This document shows positions 10,771 to 17,708 of a stretch of 33,191 nucleotides of DNA, piece by piece. The position numbers were made by a program, and so were the translations under genes. The number at the start of each line of letters is the position of its first letter. The first letter of the stretch is position 1. The notes under the pieces were generated by a model, which saw only the letters and a program-made list of their open reading frames with translations, searched no databases and was not told where the DNA came from. This DNA is from Thermus aquaticus (GTDB taxonomy: Bacteria; Deinococcota; Deinococci; Deinococcales; Thermaceae): the NCBI RefSeq assembly GCF_001280255.1, contig NZ_LHCI01000106.1:182104-215294 (forward strand), written 5' to 3'.

Positions 10771-11127
10771 ATGGGCCAACGCTTGGCGGGGAAGCGGCTC
10801 TACCTGGTCCTGGCCCTGGGCTGGATGGGGGTCTTGTGGTACTTTTCCTCCCTGCCCGCCACGGGGGCGGGCCTCCCCCACCCTTGGGACAAGGGGGCCC
10901 ACCTCCTGGCCTACGCCCTTTTGGGCTTCCTCCTTGGGCGGGGGCTTGGGGGCTTGTATCCCGCCTTTTTCCTCGCCGCCCTCTACGGCCTGGTGGACGA
11001 GTGGCACCAGAACTTCGTCCCCGGGCGGGAGGCCTTTGGCCTGGACCTTATGGCCGACTTCCTCGGGGCCTACCTGGGGGCTAGAGGGGCGGGTAGATGG
11101 GAAGCTCTAAGAGGCGCCCGCCCTTAG
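10771..11127 (+). CDS. VanZ-like family membrane protein
   Basis: A 118-residue membrane protein with about four helices. It has the VanZ-like signature: DKGAHLLAYALLGFLLG (residues ~38-54) and DEWHQNFVPGREAFGLDLMADFLGAYLGA (residues ~74-102), where the acidic residues and HQxFVPGR motif are conserved. The family function is poorly defined; VanZ itself gives low-level teicoplanin resistance. ATG at 10771 is the first start after the hairpin element. The 3' end overlaps the convergent SDR gene by 47 bp. Confidence 0.85.
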   Translation: MGQRLAGKRLYLVLALGWMGVLWYFSSLPATGAGLPHPWDKGAHLLAYALLGFLLGRGLGGLYPAFFLAALYGLVDEWHQNFVPGREAFGLDLMADFLGAYLGARGAGRWEALRGARP

Positions 11128-11764
11128 CCTCTGCCGCCTGGACCACCATCTCCGCCACCAGTTCCGGGGCGATCCAGCGGCTGGGGTCGGCCTCGGGCAT
11201 GGCCCGGCGGTTGGCCTCGGTGTCCAGGGTGCCCATGGGGTAGACCACCAGAAAGCGCACCCCCGCCACCTCCCCCTGCAGGGACTTGAGGAGGCTCGCC
11301 AAGGCAGTCTTGGCCATGGTGTAGAGGGCCCGGCCCGGCCCCGTCCCCGTCCAGGCGGGTCCGGCGGCGAAGGCGGCGAAGAAGCCCTCTTGACGGGCCT
11401 CCATGTAGGGGAGGACGGCCTTTAGGAGGTTGTAGGTGGTGCGCAGGTTCAGGTCTAGCATCCAGTCGTAAAGCCCCGGCTCCGAGTCCAGAAAGCGCCC
11501 GGCGGCGAACCCCCCCACGGTGTGGACCACGCCGTAGAGGGGGGCTTCCCCTTCCACGAAGCGGGCCAGGGCCAAGGCCTCCTCCAGTCTGGTCAGGTCG
11601 GCCACGAAGGTCTTAGCCCCCACCGCCTCCGCCCTTTCCGCCATGCGCTCTAAGCGGGGGTCGGAGAGGAAGAGCCTGGCCCCCGCCCGGTGGAAGGCGG
11701 GAATGAGGGCCCTGGCAAGGGCGCCCCCGGCCCCGGTGATGAGAAAGGCCTTTCCTTCCAGCAT
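11081..11764 (-). CDS. Short-chain dehydrogenase/reductase with atypical catalytic site
   Basis: A 227-residue Rossmann protein of classical-SDR size. The cofactor motif is ITGAGGALARAL at the N-terminus, FVADL gives the conserved Asp near residue 61, and the active-site YTMAK holds Tyr and Lys. The catalytic Ser expected 13 residues before Tyr is a Gly in an AAFAAGPAW stretch, and the usual NNAG motif reads HTVGG. The fold is clear, but activity may be altered. ATG 11764 has TAGAAT 6 nt upstream. The substrate is unknown. Confidence 0.85.
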   Translation of the reverse strand: MLEGKAFLITGAGGALARALIPAFHRAGARLFLSDPRLERMAERAEAVGAKTFVADLTRLEEALALARFVEGEAPLYGVVHTVGGFAAGRFLDSEPGLYDWMLDLNLRTTYNLLKAVLPYMEARQEGFFAAFAAGPAWTGTGPGRALYTMAKTALASLLKSLQGEVAGVRFLVVYPMGTLDTEANRRAMPEADPSRWIAPELVAEMVVQAAEAKGGRLLELPIYPPL

Positions 11765-11768
11765 GGCC

Positions 11769-12743
11769 TCATTCTACGGGGATGAAGGCCAGGAACTGGG
11801 GCGGGAAGCCCAATGAGGGGAGGGCCACCCTCTGGGGCGGGGAGGGGACCAGGTCGTAGACGTAGAGGAGGCTTCCTGAGGCCAGGTAGAGGTAGCTATC
11901 CTGCCCCACCAGGCCGGCGGCGAAGTTCAGGAAGACCTCCTGAGGCCCTGAGTCCCTGGGCTCCAGGACCTGGAAGCCCCGGCCCAAGGCCGCAAGCCCC
12001 GCCACCGGGTCCAGGGCCAGCCGGGCCTGCCCTGGGAAATCCCCCAGGACCTTACGGCTTTGCAGGGTGTCCCCTAGGAGGGTGTAGAGGCGGGTTTCCG
12101 TGGCCGTGGCCCCCAGGCTCAGAAGCCTTCCCCGGCTTCCGTCCGCCCTGAAGTCAAAGGGTCCCTGGGCCAGGGGCAGATCCAGGGGCTTTTCCAGCCT
12201 GGGGCTTCCCCCGGGGTTTTGGGCCGGGCGGAAGCCCATGGCGCTTGGGGTCATGTAGGCCAAGAGGTCCAGGGTGCCCTGGGGGAGGAGGGCGAGGCGG
12301 AGGGGCCCCTCGAGGCCCGTGAGGTCGGCCTCGAGGGGGTCCTCCAGGCCGGGGGGAAAGAGGAAAGCCTTTCCCGCCTCCGGGCAGTGGACCAGGAGCC
12401 GGTTCTGCCCCAGGCGCAGGTAGCCCCCGGCGCAGCCCGTGAGGGGCGCCGTGGCCTGGAGGTTCTGGGGGACGGAGGCCTCGCTGAAGCCTGAGGTGGC
12501 GTAGGCCTCGAGGCGGTCCAGGAAGAGGAGGTAAAGCCGCCCCTGGCTCCCCCAGTAGGCCAGGTCCTGGAGGCCATCCTTGCTCCAGGTGGCCACGGGG
12601 GCGGCCAGGCCCGCCTGGAGGTCCCGGGCCCGGTAAAAGCGCACCTCGCTCCCGCTCCCCGCCGCCACCAGGGCGGGGAGGGGGGGCTCCTGGCTTCCCG
12701 TGCAGGCGGAAAGGAGAAGGAGAAGGAGGAGCCACTTCCTCAC
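11769..12743 (-). CDS. Lipoprotein encoded at the end of the Lpt-like cassette
   Basis: A 324-residue protein with a short lipoprotein signal: MRKWLLLLLLLSAC, with the lipobox cysteine at residue 14. The rest is a run of short beta-prone segments (for example GRLYLLFLDRLEAY, GYLRLGQNRLLVHC, DSYLYLASGSLLYVYDL) resembling a beta-propeller; I cannot name a family. The GTG start at 12743 overlaps the LptD-like stop (GTGA) and has GGGAGG just upstream, so the long N-terminal extension possible in this frame is rejected. Tight coupling to LptD suggests an outer-membrane partner role, comparable in position to LptE, but this is inference. Confidence 0.8.
   Translation of the reverse strand: MRKWLLLLLLLSACTGSQEPPLPALVAAGSGSEVRFYRARDLQAGLAAPVATWSKDGLQDLAYWGSQGRLYLLFLDRLEAYATSGFSEASVPQNLQATAPLTGCAGGYLRLGQNRLLVHCPEAGKAFLFPPGLEDPLEADLTGLEGPLRLALLPQGTLDLLAYMTPSAMGFRPAQNPGGSPRLEKPLDLPLAQGPFDFRADGSRGRLLSLGATATETRLYTLLGDTLQSRKVLGDFPGQARLALDPVAGLAALGRGFQVLEPRDSGPQEVFLNFAAGLVGQDSYLYLASGSLLYVYDLVPSPPQRVALPSLGFPPQFLAFIPVE
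11771..11776 (-). promoter_or_regulatory. Candidate leaderless -10 box for the SDR gene
   Basis: TAGAAT on the minus strand, within the last codons of the lipoprotein gene, lies 6 nt before the SDR ATG at 11764. Confidence 0.45.
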
Positions 12744-15211
12744 GGCCCACCTCCCAGCTTCACGCCCTCCTCGGAGAGGAGGAGGCCTGCCGCCTGCCCC
12801 CCGTAGAGGAAGGCCAGGCCGAAGCTTCCCTTGGCGGCGTCCACCGTGACCCGCATGGCCCAGCAGCACCGGTCCAGGACCAGGATAAACCGGGGCTTCA
12901 AGGCCTCCCCGGGCAGGTTCTGGGTGAGGAGGGCGGCGAGGTGGAGCCGGGTGTTCTCCCGGCCCAGGAAGGTGAGGGTGGGGCCGAAGGCCCGTAGGGC
13001 GAGGTTGTAGCCTTCGGGCCGGTCGGGGCGGCGGGTGTAGGTGAGGCTTCCCGAGAAGGCGAGGCCCGGGATGGCGTTCCCCCCTTCCTCGTCGGGAGGG
13101 GTGGGCCGCCAGAGCTCGGCGCCCCCGGTGAAGGTGGCGTCCCTTAGGTAGACCCCGGGGTCCCCCACCTCGGGCAGGTGGAGGTTGGCCGTGAGGCGGA
13201 AGCCCACCTCGGGGAGGGCCTGGCTCAAGGCGAGGCGCAGGTTGCTGGCCCGGAAGCCTTCCTGGTAGCGGCCCGAGAGAGCGAGGTCAAAGAGGGGCCC
13301 CGGGGCTACCCCAAAGCGCAGGCCCGTCTGGTAACCCAGGGCCTGGGCGTCCAGGCTGAGCTGGAGGCTTAAGCTGGTGGGGCCCCAGATGGCCTGCCCT
13401 GAGAGGCTTGTGGTGTTCCTGGCCCAGTCCCGGCGGCCCTGGAGGGTGTAGGCCTCTTGGCCCTCCCGGAAGGCGAAGGCGAGGGCGGTCTCCAGGGGGC
13501 CCTCCCCGTTCAGGCCGTGGCGGTGGCTGAGGTTCAGGCTGCCCCCGGGAAGGGCGTAGCCCCCCTGGAGGAGGAGGGGGTCAAAGAGGCCTTGGGCATG
13601 GTCGTAGCGGAGGCTGGCCCTTAAGGAGAAGGGGTAGGGGGTGAGGGCCGCCTCGGCCCGGGTCTCCAGGGGACCTTCCCCCTCGAGGCCCCGCTTGTGG
13701 TAGGCCCTGAGGGCGTAGCCCGTCTCCTGAAGGCGGGCCTCCAGTTCCAGGGGCAGGTAGACCCCCTTCTCCAGGTCCCGCCCCCCCTTGAGGTTTAGAA
13801 AGAGGGGCCTCTCCGTGTACCCCAGGGCCAGGGTGGCCTGGTGGCTCCGCCTTCCCGGGAGGGCATCAAAGCGGAAGGGGCTTTCCCCCTCCTGGACGCT
13901 TCTCCCGTAGGCCAGCTCCACGCTGAACCCCCCCAGGGCCTGGCGGAAGCTGGCGCTAGTGGTCCAGTCCACCTGCCTCTCGTGCTCCCCGTCCGGGTTC
14001 TGCGTGGTGTAATAAAAGCCCCGGAAGCGGTTCTCCGCCCGGAAGGTGGCCCCGGGCCAGGGGGTGAGGGTGAGGGCCTCGGCGTGGCTCAGGAGGGCCC
14101 GCCAGGCCTCCCCGTAAGGCCCTAGGGCCCGGGCGGAGCGGTTTAGGGGGTTGGTCTCCGCCAGGTAGCGGCCCAGGACCAGGCTCCCCTGGAAGGTGAA
14201 GGGGCCTTCCCGGAGGACGGGGCTTTGCGCCTCCAGCTCGGGGAGGCGCTGGAGGGTCCTGGGCGGGGGGGTGGCGGGGTCGTGGTCCAGGAAGCCCTCG
14301 AGCCTCAGGGCGTAGCGCCAGTCCTGGGGCCCGGGGGTGCCGGGGAGGAGGCCTTCCAGGCGGAAGCGGGAAAGCTTCTCCCGGGTGTCGTCCCGCTCCA
14401 GAAGGGCCGAGACCGAAAACTCCGCCCGCTTCAGGGCGTACTCCCCCCGGTACTGGAAGGTGTCCGGGGGGGTGTGGAGAAAGAAGTAGCGCTCCCTGGC
14501 CTCCCCAAGGCCCACGTGGTCCAAGCCGAAGCCGTAGCCCCGGCCCCCGTAGTAGTGAAGGAGGGTGTAGCCCAGGCCCAGCTCGGACACGTAGGGGAGG
14601 GCGGCCTTCACGTAGACCCCCTTGTCGTCCTGGCCCACCTCCAGCCTGGGTTGCCTCTCCGAGAGGAAGAGGAGGAGGACGGGAAGCTCCAAAAGGGGCT
14701 TTTCCTGGACCAGGAGGACCACCCCCCGGGCCACCACCCGGTCCCCGGGGTAGAGGACGATCTCCCGGGCCCGGAAGGCGTAATCGGGCACCGCCTGGCC
14801 GCAGGAGGCGCAGGGGGTGGCGTAGCCCCTCTGGAGGAGGATGGCCCCTGCCGCTCTTTGGCAGAGGGGGCCGGTGAGGAGGAGGTCCTTGGCCTCTATG
14901 CGCACCTCCAAGGCGTCAAAGCTCTCGTCGGAGAGGTCCACCTGAAGCTCCTCGGCCTCTATGAGGCGGCCCTCCTTGTCCTTGTAGCGCACCTTCCCCG
15001 AGAGGAGTAAAAGCCGCTTTCCCCGAAAGTAGACCACCCTTTCCGCCTCCAGGGCCTCCCCGTCCCGTTCCAGACGCACGGGGCTTCCCACCAGCACGTA
15101 GACCTCCTCCCCGCCCTCCTCCCGGAGCTCCAGCCTCTCGGCCTCCAACACCTTTAAGGTCCCCGCCATGGCCGGGAGAAGGAGGAAGAGGAGAAGGAGG
15201 CTCCACCTCAC
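12740..15211 (-). CDS. lptD: LptD-like (OstA) outer-membrane assembly protein
   Basis: An 823-residue protein. Residues 1-17 are a signal peptide (MRWSLLLLFLLLPAMAG). Residues ~18-110 form an OstA/LptA-like jellyroll repeat (RVVYFRGKRLLLLSGKVRYKDKEGRLIEAEELQVDL). A linker with Cys117 and TPCASC (Cys134, Cys137) follows, then about 660 residues of alternating beta-strands consistent with a large barrel. The C-terminus has adjacent cysteines 782-783 (LDRCCWAMRV), matching the Cys-Cys pair that forms interdomain disulfides in E. coli LptD. LptD inserts LPS into the outer leaflet; Thermus is regarded as lacking LPS, so the cargo may be another glycolipid. GTG at 15211 overlaps the preceding permease stop. 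Confidence 0.9.
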   Translation of the reverse strand: MRWSLLLLFLLLPAMAGTLKVLEAERLELREEGGEEVYVLVGSPVRLERDGEALEAERVVYFRGKRLLLLSGKVRYKDKEGRLIEAEELQVDLSDESFDALEVRIEAKDLLLTGPLCQRAAGAILLQRGYATPCASCGQAVPDYAFRAREIVLYPGDRVVARGVVLLVQEKPLLELPVLLLFLSERQPRLEVGQDDKGVYVKAALPYVSELGLGYTLLHYYGGRGYGFGLDHVGLGEARERYFFLHTPPDTFQYRGEYALKRAEFSVSALLERDDTREKLSRFRLEGLLPGTPGPQDWRYALRLEGFLDHDPATPPPRTLQRLPELEAQSPVLREGPFTFQGSLVLGRYLAETNPLNRSARALGPYGEAWRALLSHAEALTLTPWPGATFRAENRFRGFYYTTQNPDGEHERQVDWTTSASFRQALGGFSVELAYGRSVQEGESPFRFDALPGRRSHQATLALGYTERPLFLNLKGGRDLEKGVYLPLELEARLQETGYALRAYHKRGLEGEGPLETRAEAALTPYPFSLRASLRYDHAQGLFDPLLLQGGYALPGGSLNLSHRHGLNGEGPLETALAFAFREGQEAYTLQGRRDWARNTTSLSGQAIWGPTSLSLQLSLDAQALGYQTGLRFGVAPGPLFDLALSGRYQEGFRASNLRLALSQALPEVGFRLTANLHLPEVGDPGVYLRDATFTGGAELWRPTPPDEEGGNAIPGLAFSGSLTYTRRPDRPEGYNLALRAFGPTLTFLGRENTRLHLAALLTQNLPGEALKPRFILVLDRCCWAMRVTVDAAKGSFGLAFLYGGQAAGLLLSEEGVKLGGGP

Positions 15212-16251
15212 CTGCGCCCTCCCAGGAAGAGGAGAAGCCCGAGAAGCCCATAGAGGAGGTTGGGCCCCCAGGCGGCGAGAAGGGGGTCCAGGGCGTTCTG
15301 CTCCCCCATGATGCGGCCCACGCTCCAGGTGGCGTAGTAGAAGAAGGTGAGGATGGCCACGCCTACCCACCCCAGGCTGCGGCTTCCCCCCAGGAGGTAA
15401 AAGGCCAGGCCCACGGCGAAGAGGGCGAAGACCACCGCCGAGGCGGGTTCGGCGTAGCGGCGGTGGTAGGTGGTGGCCTCGAGGCCCGCCTTCACCCCCA
15501 GGGCCCGCAGCCGCTCCACCTCCTTCTTCAGTTCCCCCAGGGTCATCCGGTTGGCCGGGTTCTGCCAGGGCTCAAAGGTGAGGTCCTTGAGGAGGATCTC
15601 CCCCTTCTGGAAGCGGGTTAAGGTCCTGGGCCTGTCCCCCTCGTAGGTGACCCTCTGGCCCTCCTCTACCAGCAAGACCCCTTCCCGGAACCGGCCCCTT
15701 TCCGCCAGAAGCACCTCCTCCTGGGAGAGGACCCTGAGCTTCCCGATCCTGTCCCCGGCCACCTCCCCCACGTAGACCACCCGCCCCCTGGCGTCCTGGA
15801 AGGTGGTCCCGGGGGTGAGGAGGGCCCTGGGCCTCTCCAAAACCTGCCGCCTTAGGAGGTCCTGCCCCGCCGCCAGGGCCTTGGGTACCAGGCTTTCCCC
15901 CAGGAGGAAGACCGCGAGGGCGATGAGGAGGGCGAGGAGCAAAAAGGGCAAGAGAACCCGCTCCCGGGCCACGCCCAAGGCCAGGAGGGCCTTCAGCTCC
16001 GAGTCCTCGGCCATGCGGGAGAGGAGGAGCAAGAGGGCGAAGAGGTACGCCACCGGGGCCCCCCGCACCAGGGCCTCGGGGGCGCGGTAGAGGAGGTAGA
16101 GGAGGAGGGTGTAGGGGTCGGCCCCCTTAGCCACCAGGGGGGCCAGGACCTCGTAGACCGCCCCCGCCAGGAAGAGGAGGACGATGGCCGCAAGCCCTCC
16201 CAGGAAGAGAGAGAGGGCCTCGCGCAGGAGGTAGCGGTCCAGGGTCTTCAC
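15208..16251 (-). CDS. LptF/LptG-family permease (second of pair)
   Basis: A 347-residue inner-membrane protein of the YjgP/YjgQ family. The N-terminus MKTLDRYLLREALSLFLGGLAAIVLLFLAG and the motif SRMAEDSELKALLALGVARERVLLPF are characteristic. There are three N-terminal helices, a periplasmic beta-rich domain (residues ~140-235) and three C-terminal helices. In Lpt systems LptF and LptG extract lipid from the inner membrane with the ATPase LptB, which is not in this window. GTG at 16251 overlaps the upstream permease stop (GTGA) and the stop overlaps the lptD-like start. Confidence 0.93.
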   Translation of the reverse strand: MKTLDRYLLREALSLFLGGLAAIVLLFLAGAVYEVLAPLVAKGADPYTLLLYLLYRAPEALVRGAPVAYLFALLLLLSRMAEDSELKALLALGVARERVLLPFLLLALLIALAVFLLGESLVPKALAAGQDLLRRQVLERPRALLTPGTTFQDARGRVVYVGEVAGDRIGKLRVLSQEEVLLAERGRFREGVLLVEEGQRVTYEGDRPRTLTRFQKGEILLKDLTFEPWQNPANRMTLGELKKEVERLRALGVKAGLEATTYHRRYAEPASAVVFALFAVGLAFYLLGGSRSLGWVGVAILTFFYYATWSVGRIMGEQNALDPLLAAWGPNLLYGLLGLLLFLGGRR

Positions 16252-17258
16252 CGTAGCCTCCAGGTGAGGTAAAGGGCGAGAAGCCCATAGAGCCCGTTGG
16301 GCAGATGGGCCAGGAGGGGGCTCACATCGTAGCGGGCCAGCTGGGCCGAGAGGGTCCAGAGGACGTAGTAGCCGAAGATGAGGAGGACCACGCCCAAGAA
16401 GGCCCAGGCCGCCTCCCTGAGGGAAAGGCCCAGCGCGGCGGCGGCGAAGCCCAGGAAGAACCCCCCCAGGGCGTCCGCCAGGCGGCGGTGGAGGGCGAAG
16501 CGGGCCGCGGGCTCCACCCGGGCCCTCTGCCAGAGCTCCTCCAGGGTGCTGGAGTCATAGGGGTCCTTGGAGCCCAGGCTTTCCTTGGGGCGGAAGAGGG
16601 CGGGGAAGGGGAGGATGCCCTGGAAGGGCTTGAGCTTGCCCTCCTCCAAGACGTACCCCAGGAACTGCCAGCCCTCCCGGTCCCAGACCCCTTCCTTGGC
16701 GCTATAGATGCGCCCTTTCTCGTCCACCACCCTGAGGCCATAGAGGCGGTTCTGCCCCACCCCGGGCACCACCTCCTCGGCGTAGTAGACCCCCTGGCCC
16801 TCCAGGGCGTAGACCTGCCGCCTCAGGACCCCGCTTAGCCCCCCTTCCCCGTAGAGGAGGCGGGCCAGGGCCCGGTCGTAGGCCTCGAGGGCCCTGGGCC
16901 TCACCTCGGCCAGGTTGTAGAGGTTCACCAGGGCCACGAGGAGGGAGAGGAGGAGAAGGGGCTTCAAGAGGGCCAAAGGGGGAATCCCGGCGGCGTAGGC
17001 CGCCTTCAGTTCCGAGTGGCGGATGAGGCGGGAAAGCCCCACCAGGATGGCGAAGACCAGGCCCAGGGGCAGGGCCAGGCTCAGGGTCCAGGGGAGGCGG
17101 TAGAGCACCAGGAGCAGGATGGCCTCCGCCCCCGCCCCCCGGCTTAGGAAGACTCCGGAGAGGCTGGAGAGAAGGTCAAAGGTCAGGAGGGCCATGAAGA
17201 GGAAGACCCCCACCCCGTAGGGGAGGAGGACCTCCTTGAGGACGTAGCGACCCAGCAC
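16248..17258 (-). CDS. LptF/LptG-family permease (first of pair)
   Basis: A 336-residue paralogue of the next gene with the same three-helix, periplasmic domain, three-helix layout. MLGRYVLKEVLLPYGVGVFLFMALLTFDLL and SRLIRHSELKAAYAAGIPPLALLKP are the family hallmarks. Which of the two permeases is the LptF and which the LptG equivalent cannot be settled by eye. GTG at 17258 is preceded at 6 nt by TATACT, so the whole four-gene cassette probably runs from one leaderless promoter. Confidence 0.93.
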   Translation of the reverse strand: MLGRYVLKEVLLPYGVGVFLFMALLTFDLLSSLSGVFLSRGAGAEAILLLVLYRLPWTLSLALPLGLVFAILVGLSRLIRHSELKAAYAAGIPPLALLKPLLLLSLLVALVNLYNLAEVRPRALEAYDRALARLLYGEGGLSGVLRRQVYALEGQGVYYAEEVVPGVGQNRLYGLRVVDEKGRIYSAKEGVWDREGWQFLGYVLEEGKLKPFQGILPFPALFRPKESLGSKDPYDSSTLEELWQRARVEPAARFALHRRLADALGGFFLGFAAAALGLSLREAAWAFLGVVLLIFGYYVLWTLSAQLARYDVSPLLAHLPNGLYGLLALYLTWRLR

Positions 17259-17264
17259 GGGGGC

Positions 17265-17270
17265 AGTATA
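17265..17270 (-). promoter_or_regulatory. Candidate leaderless promoter of the Lpt-like cassette
   Basis: TATACT on the minus strand, 6 nt before the GTG at 17258. It matches the -10 consensus at five of six positions. Confidence 0.55.
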
Positions 17271-17294
17271 CGGGAGGGGGATGAGAAAAGGCTT

Positions 17295-17708
17295 TTAGGG
17301 GTGGGCGATGACGTGGATCACCGGCAGGCCGAAGCGCTCGGCCTGGGTGTGCACGTCCAGCCTCAGCCAGCGGGAGATCCCCGGGGGCAGGGTGGCCAGG
17401 ACGATGGCCTGGTAGGCCCCGGGGTGGGCGAGGAGCTCCTCCTCTATGGCGAGAAGGGGGGAGATGTCCCCCGCCTTGGCCTGGGCGATGGGGATGCCCT
17501 GGGCCTCGAGGGCCGCCTTGGCCGCCTGGGCCTCCTCCTCCGCCTTCTTCCGCACCTCGTTCTCCTCGTAGACCCACCCGGGCGGGGGCACGGCGGGCAC
17601 CAGGAGGACGAAGCGGGCCGTGGGGTCCCGTTCCTGGATTTCCCTAAGCTTGGCCGCCAGCTCGGGGCTTTTGGCCGTGCGGTGGGCCACCACCAGGTAC
17701 TGGGCCAT
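17295..17708 (-). CDS. Small USP-like conserved protein
   Basis: A 137-residue soluble alpha/beta protein. It begins with a hydrophobic strand and a basic loop (YLVVAHRTAKSPELAAKL), has FVLLVPAVPP, a charged helix, then AIVLATLPPGISRWLRLDVHTQAERFGLPVIHVIAHP at the end. This ordering resembles single-domain universal-stress-type alpha-hydrolase folds, but the glycine-rich nucleotide motif of true UspA proteins is not clear. I do not assign a function. AAGGAGG at 17714-17720 gives a good ribosome binding site 5 nt from ATG 17708. Confidence 0.72.
   Translation of the reverse strand: MAQYLVVAHRTAKSPELAAKLREIQERDPTARFVLLVPAVPPPGWVYEENEVRKKAEEEAQAAKAALEAQGIPIAQAKAGDISPLLAIEEELLAHPGAYQAIVLATLPPGISRWLRLDVHTQAERFGLPVIHVIAHP

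Follow-up and report, generated by a model that had tools for sequence, protein, structure and literature searches.

In Thermus aquaticus, an Lpt bridge has probably been kept after the loss of lipid A and now moves a putative LPS-like glycolipid cargo. At the center of this machine, in the window analyzed here (the whole stretch of 33,191 nucleotides), is a four-gene operon on the minus strand at 11769–17258, which encodes two LptF/G permeases, LptD, and a lipoprotein.

Organization of the operon

The first gene of the operon encodes LptF/LptG-type permease 1 (P0003; 16248–17258, minus strand), and the second encodes LptF/LptG-type permease 2 (P0002; 15208–16251, minus strand). They matched PF03739 in full length, over positions 1–353 and 1–352 of 353, with 190.7 and 256.9 bits, respectively, at a cut-off of 27.9 bits. 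Both scored under the LptF and LptG equivalog cut-offs. The third gene, lptD (P0001; 12740–15211, minus strand), encodes an 823-aa protein with a signal peptide, and the fourth (P0004; 11769–12743, minus strand) encodes a beta-propeller lipoprotein, a candidate partner of LptD. Adjoining genes share four bases, GTGA in every case (16248–16251, 15208–15211, and 12740–12743). The preliminary description of a permease pair, an LptD-like protein with an OstA domain, and a lipoprotein joined by GTGA overlaps was thus borne out on the minus strand. The order of two LptF/G genes followed by lptD is kept in four families of the phylum, and the operon goes far beyond chance, with homologues in 106 of 111 phylum genomes and a conserved gene order.

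Two parts of the preliminary description require correction. The range given for the cassette, 12740–17258, leaves out the lipoprotein gene and should read 11769–17258. Moreover, the cassette was called complete, but lptB, lptA, and an lptC-like gene are encoded elsewhere and LptE is missing, the operon containing the propeller lipoprotein instead.

A short-chain dehydrogenase gene (11081–11764) begins 4 nt past the lipoprotein gene. It was rejected as a fifth operon member because it shares the strand of the operon in Thermus and the sister genus g5 alone and lies on the opposite strand in genera g2–g4. Just upstream of the operon, on the same strand, there is a 137-aa ORF (17295–17708) assigned to no family, which was seen only in Thermus among the loci compared.

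Identification of LptD

The 823-aa protein is LptD, as indicated by its fold, its invariant cysteines, bridge proteins in other phyla, and the position of its gene behind LptF/G. P0001 had no usable direct sequence match in Pfam, NCBIfam, or the PDB. A search of 41 homologues against Pfam and NCBIfam gave no LptD match and only weak matches to LptA and LptC, and the 41-member profile retrieved LptA and LptD from the PDB at E values of about 0.1, ranked behind unrelated porins at 0.002. The AlphaFold2 model of P0001 (pLDDT 88.4, pTM 0.54) was used for Foldseek, in which ranks 1–22 were all LptD with a best E value of 2e-17. VIA-align of the model with full-length LptD gave Z scores of 16–20.6 at an rmsd of 15–17 Å, and we therefore limit the claim to topology and domain order; with this rmsd and a pTM of 0.54, the barrel size and domain arrangement of the model are uncertain.

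The predicted periplasmic beta-taco (OstA) domain comprises about residues 17–182 (14666–15163, minus strand). Residues 16–137 of the model were superposed on LptA (2r1a) with a Z score of 13.6 and an rmsd of 2.4 Å over 116 residues, and the beta-taco region also gave a weak PF03968 match (E value of 0.094). The predicted outer-membrane barrel comprises residues 198–813 (12773–14620, minus strand), for which DSSP on the model assigned 38 strands, and it matches LptD barrels. The structure prediction, on which the preliminary description had staked the LptD-like reading, thus contains both a beta-taco domain and a barrel.

Bridge proteins from Armatimonadetes and Omnitrophota match P0001 and also the NCBIfam LptD model NF003358 (1.5e-9 and 1.2e-10, respectively, both under the curated cut-off). 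The Armatimonadetes bridge gene starts right after the stop of an LptF/G permease gene, and direct phmmer of its product against the PDB gave no match. LptD homologues were detected in 106 of the 111 Deinococcota genomes. In G100 and G008, which have LpxC and one LptF/G permease, LptD was not detected; these are either incomplete assemblies or real exceptions.

Among 57 LptD sequences of the phylum, C134, C137, C782, and C783 are invariant. The former two form a CxxC in a [T/S]-P-C-x-x-C-G-Q motif (14801–14812, minus strand), and the latter two are consecutive in a DRCCWA motif (12863–12868, minus strand). The suggestion that LptD-like gating cysteines are retained therefore stands for these four; C117, which had been listed with them as conserved, is not conserved across the phylum. 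In the bridge LptDs, which have a single cysteine pair, the cysteine of FTSC/FTTC aligns with C134 and that of DLHCW aligns with C783. Putative disulfides from C134/C137 to C782/C783 would lock the beta-taco domain onto the barrel.

Propeller lipoprotein adjoining lptD

The mature N-terminus of P0004 is predicted to be C-T-G-S-Q-E-P, starting with the lipidation cysteine (12684–12704, minus strand). In an alignment of 46 sequences, C14 and G16 are invariant, T15 and E19 are conserved at 90% or more, and C104 and C120 are nearly invariant; across homologues, the mature protein begins with C-T/S-G-S/T. The first impression that the lipoprotein is restricted to Thermaceae was overturned by an iterated profile, which located its gene immediately behind lptD in four families (f1, f4, f5, and f2). 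It adjoins lptD in genomes with and without LpxC.

The P0004 model (pLDDT 95.5, pTM 0.91) is a beta-propeller and was superposed on 1ri6 with a Z score of 26.2 and an rmsd of 3.0 over 290. Judged by its best structural matches, the predicted propeller is most likely seven-bladed. The matches included BtuG2 and its relative BT1954, and BtuG is a precedent for a propeller lipoprotein capping a barrel. LptE (PF04390) was found in none of the 111 Deinococcota genomes, and the E. coli, Caulobacter, and Bacteroides controls were all detected. P0004 was rejected as LptE since no genome gave a PF04390 match and its model is a high-confidence propeller. Because LptE was not detected, we classed the system as an Lpt variant and not as an LptDE system. 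We propose that the propeller lipoprotein may be the LptD partner in Deinococcota.

Other Lpt components and a shared promoter element

As the preliminary description had suggested, we looked for lptB, lptA, and lptC homologues, and LptB, two LptA, and an LptC-like protein are encoded elsewhere in the genome. LptB is represented by one TIGR04406 equivalog (327 bits, cut-off 240). LptA is encoded at L046:7025–7882 (PF03968, 38.8 bits, 1.2e-9, cut-off 20.4) and followed by a second LptA-like gene; directly before it lies an LptC-like ORF of 188 aa with one N-terminal hydrophobic stretch and no family match. LptA is present in 106 of the 111 phylum genomes.

A third LptF/G permease is encoded at L047:7241–8973. 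Almost all genomes of the phylum have such a permease, and about three of the LptF/G type in total. The partner of the third permease is an OstA-like protein of 209 aa without a Pfam match, and the two possibly form a second lipid route. In LpxC-less genomes of g13, g14, and f2, the third permease gene is located directly after fabZ (L136:8096–9229, L137:6635–7768, L138:8877–10199, L139:8049–9200, and L147:8686–9819), where LpxC-bearing relatives have lpxA.

A putative promoter element, TTCTCA-N11-TATACT, is located at 17265–17287 on the minus strand. TATACT (17265–17270) lies 6 nt ahead of the GTG of the first permease gene, a leaderless-type spacing. The TATACT promoter postulated at this site was present ahead of the same gene in all Thermus loci examined, most of which also have TTCTCA. 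The pattern TTCTCA-N11/12-TANNNT, partly fitted after inspection of the lpt loci, had three matches in 199,582 strand-bases around the lpt genes, each upstream of an lpt operon: lptFGD-lipoprotein (window 17287, minus strand), lptC-A-A (L046:6443), and the OstA-like gene with the third permease (L047:7220). Three of the four lpt loci thus carry the element, lptB being the one without it. In other Thermus loci, all 16 matches were at lpt operons. Sampling of the rest of the genome gave two matches in 1,480,000 strand-bases, about 1.4 per million, and at this background, two more matches in 60-bp upstream regions are very unlikely to arise by chance. The two non-lpt matches (L168:12396 and L191:6899, both on the minus strand) also stand just before ORFs. 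A sigma-70 scan of the region upstream of the operon found no −35/−10 pair, and a literature search for an ECF sigma consensus like the TTCTCA element returned nothing relevant. The element at the third-permease operon is only partly conserved between species; by sharing it, the third permease is linked to the same regulon.

Since the third permease has an OstA-like partner and shares the element, several lipids may be moved, which would suit a system that carries ordinary phospholipid or serves as a link between the S-layer or wall polymers and the outer membrane. We consider such a role unlikely. The hallmark of large-amphiphile export to the outer leaflet is an LptD translocon with gating cysteines. 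In addition, outer-membrane lipid homeostasis in E. coli depends on other routes, YhdP/TamB/YdbH (PMC8593681).

Loss of lipid A genes around fabZ

LpxC was detected in 61 of the 111 genomes, but all 27 Thermus genomes are without it. In the T. aquaticus genome, LpxC, LpxB, and LpxA were searched for and not found, in agreement with the assignment of this lineage to those without LPS. In Meiothermus, Calidithermus, Trueperaceae, and others, the locus has the order mreB-lpxD-lpxC-oxidoreductase-fabZ-lpxA-lpxB-msbA, and that in Thermus and its sister genus is mreB-fabZ-S4 protein-rpoB. The lipid A genes have been excised on both sides of the retained fabZ in Thermus. A full lipid A pathway, which would have spoken against the preliminary description, is therefore absent, the locus being reduced to fabZ.

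On the LptD tree, the LpxC state changed at least four times, the fourth change being in G083, a single metagenome-assembled genome. The absence of LpxC in G084 and G088 was not scored as loss, as their contigs end next to mreB. LptD is retained in 47 of the 50 LpxC-less genomes, and the three without it are 58–72% complete. LptD thus outlasted the lipid A genes in about four separate losses. The cluster of G083 (Trueperaceae, one contig, L122:5418–13651) no longer contains lpxD and lpxC and keeps the oxidoreductase gene, fabZ, lpxA, and lpxB-like and msbA-like genes; it is a half-eroded lipid A cluster.

The gene-by-gene erosion in G083, together with the divergent LpxB of relatives, which only just reaches the Pfam cut-off, could indicate that the bridge still carries LPS and that the searches overlooked a divergent lipid A pathway behind it. 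This is very improbable, however, because searches readily recover LpxC in relatives (up to 232 bits) but in not one of the 27 Thermus genomes, only fabZ remains at the syntenic locus, and the LpxA search of T. aquaticus gave at best weak hexapeptide matches, including one inside a GlmU-like ORF.

Selection on the lpt genes

The dN/dS of lptD in Thermus was 0.31–0.34, versus 0.10–0.12 for mreB and recA. Thus, lptD is under purifying selection, at a rate above that of cytoplasmic core genes, which is what would be expected of a surface protein. A −1 change splits lptD in three Thermus genomes: G051 (L131) and G050 (L132) have it at nt 739, within a C7 run, and G047 (L133) has it near nt 947. 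These changes represent sequencing error, slippage, or phase variation. The least probable reading of all is that the lpt genes are relics, expressed yet dispensable leftovers of the lost LPS pathway: the three frameshifts and the dN/dS of 0.58 for the lipoprotein in Thermus would fit it, but the frameshifts in G050 and G051 sit in a homopolymer, LptD has persisted through about four losses of LpxC, and lptD shows purifying selection, invariant cysteines, and a conserved promoter.

Proposed mechanism and cargo

If the Lpt bridge has been kept after lipid A loss for an LPS-like glycolipid, the operon would supply the LptF/LptG pair for the inner membrane, LptD as the translocon of the outer membrane, and a propeller lipoprotein associated with that translocon. 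LptB2 and the permease pair would use ATP to pull the amphiphile out of the inner membrane, and the LptC-like protein and LptA would hand it along a continuous beta-taco groove. LptD would then release it sideways into the outer leaflet, if the transport direction is that of E. coli. For the E. coli Lpt system, LptD disulfides and lipid transfer have been described (PMC10567701).

The ancestor would have exported lipid A-based LPS. Lipid A synthesis would then have been lost, and the bridge kept, in Thermus and in about three further lineages independently. The present cargo would be a multi-acylated surface glycolipid, such as the neutral glycolipids or phosphoglycolipids of Thermus. The surface glycolipids of T. 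thermophilus have up to four sugars and three acyl chains (PMC3398001), and these physically LPS-like molecules are the most plausible cargo. We further consider it possible, with confidence a little below even, that this is a Deinococcota-specific form of Lpt, combining an LptD barrel enlarged to about 38 strands, a propeller lipoprotein in place of LptE, a rare promoter common to dispersed lpt operons, and about four separate conversions from LPS to glycolipid export through loss of the lipid A genes.

Comparison with known systems

A passage of PMC10353723, citing Putker 2015, describes Thermus as having Lpt orthologues without LPS, with glycolipids as the likely cargo, and the paper names T. 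thermophilus as a further LPS-less Lpt case. An LPS-containing outer membrane has been assigned to the ancestor of Deinococcus/Thermus, with loss in some members (PMC5007114). According to PMC8871954, on the other hand, neither lptD nor lptE ever occurs in atypical diderms of this kind, and an evolutionary argument is founded there on that absence. Published surveys thus conflict on LptD in Deinococcus-Thermus, and the statement that lptD is never found is contradicted by its phylum-wide presence here, under the reach of curated models; LptE was undetected, and another lipoprotein stands beside lptD.

Whereas Thermus Lpt orthologues and glycolipids as their possible cargo were already published, the phylum-wide LptD, the propeller partner candidate, the gene excision at fabZ, and the shared promoter are new. 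In the literature searched, which covered few subscription journals, we found no description of the propeller lipoprotein, the lpx loss around fabZ, or the shared promoter. With the repeated, locus-resolved lpx loss around fabZ, the role of an LPS-free Lpt machine becomes open to testing in T. thermophilus, a species with an established gene-manipulation system (PMC3398001), and the phylum offers matched relatives with and without lipid A.

The Thermus system resembles E. coli Lpt (LptB2FG-C-A-DE) in having LptF/G, LptB, LptA, and an LptD with a beta-taco domain and a barrel, and both LptDs have two cysteine pairs, of which the C-terminal pair is consecutive. It differs in that the N-terminal cysteines form a CxxC, the barrel is predicted to have about 38 strands against the 26 of E. 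coli LptD, LptE is missing and the candidate lipoprotein partner is a beta-propeller, lipid A genes are absent, lptFG, lptD, and the lipoprotein gene form one operon, and a third LptF/G permease is present. The E. coli lipoprotein LptM (YifL) is likewise associated with the translocon (PMC10567701); it is small, in contrast to the full beta-propeller of Thermus, and the analogy concerns the role and implies no sequence relation. Borrelia burgdorferi is also an LPS-less diderm with LptA, B, C, D, F, and G, for which a glycolipid cargo has been proposed and LptE has not been reported (PMC10353723). It belongs to another phylum, and its genes are in three E. coli-like loci, with no propeller lipoprotein reported. 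Within the phylum, Meiothermus, Calidithermus, and Trueperaceae share the LptF/G-LptD-lipoprotein cassette and the mreB-fabZ locus with Thermus but still possess lpxD, lpxC, lpxA, and the lpxB-like and msbA-like genes.
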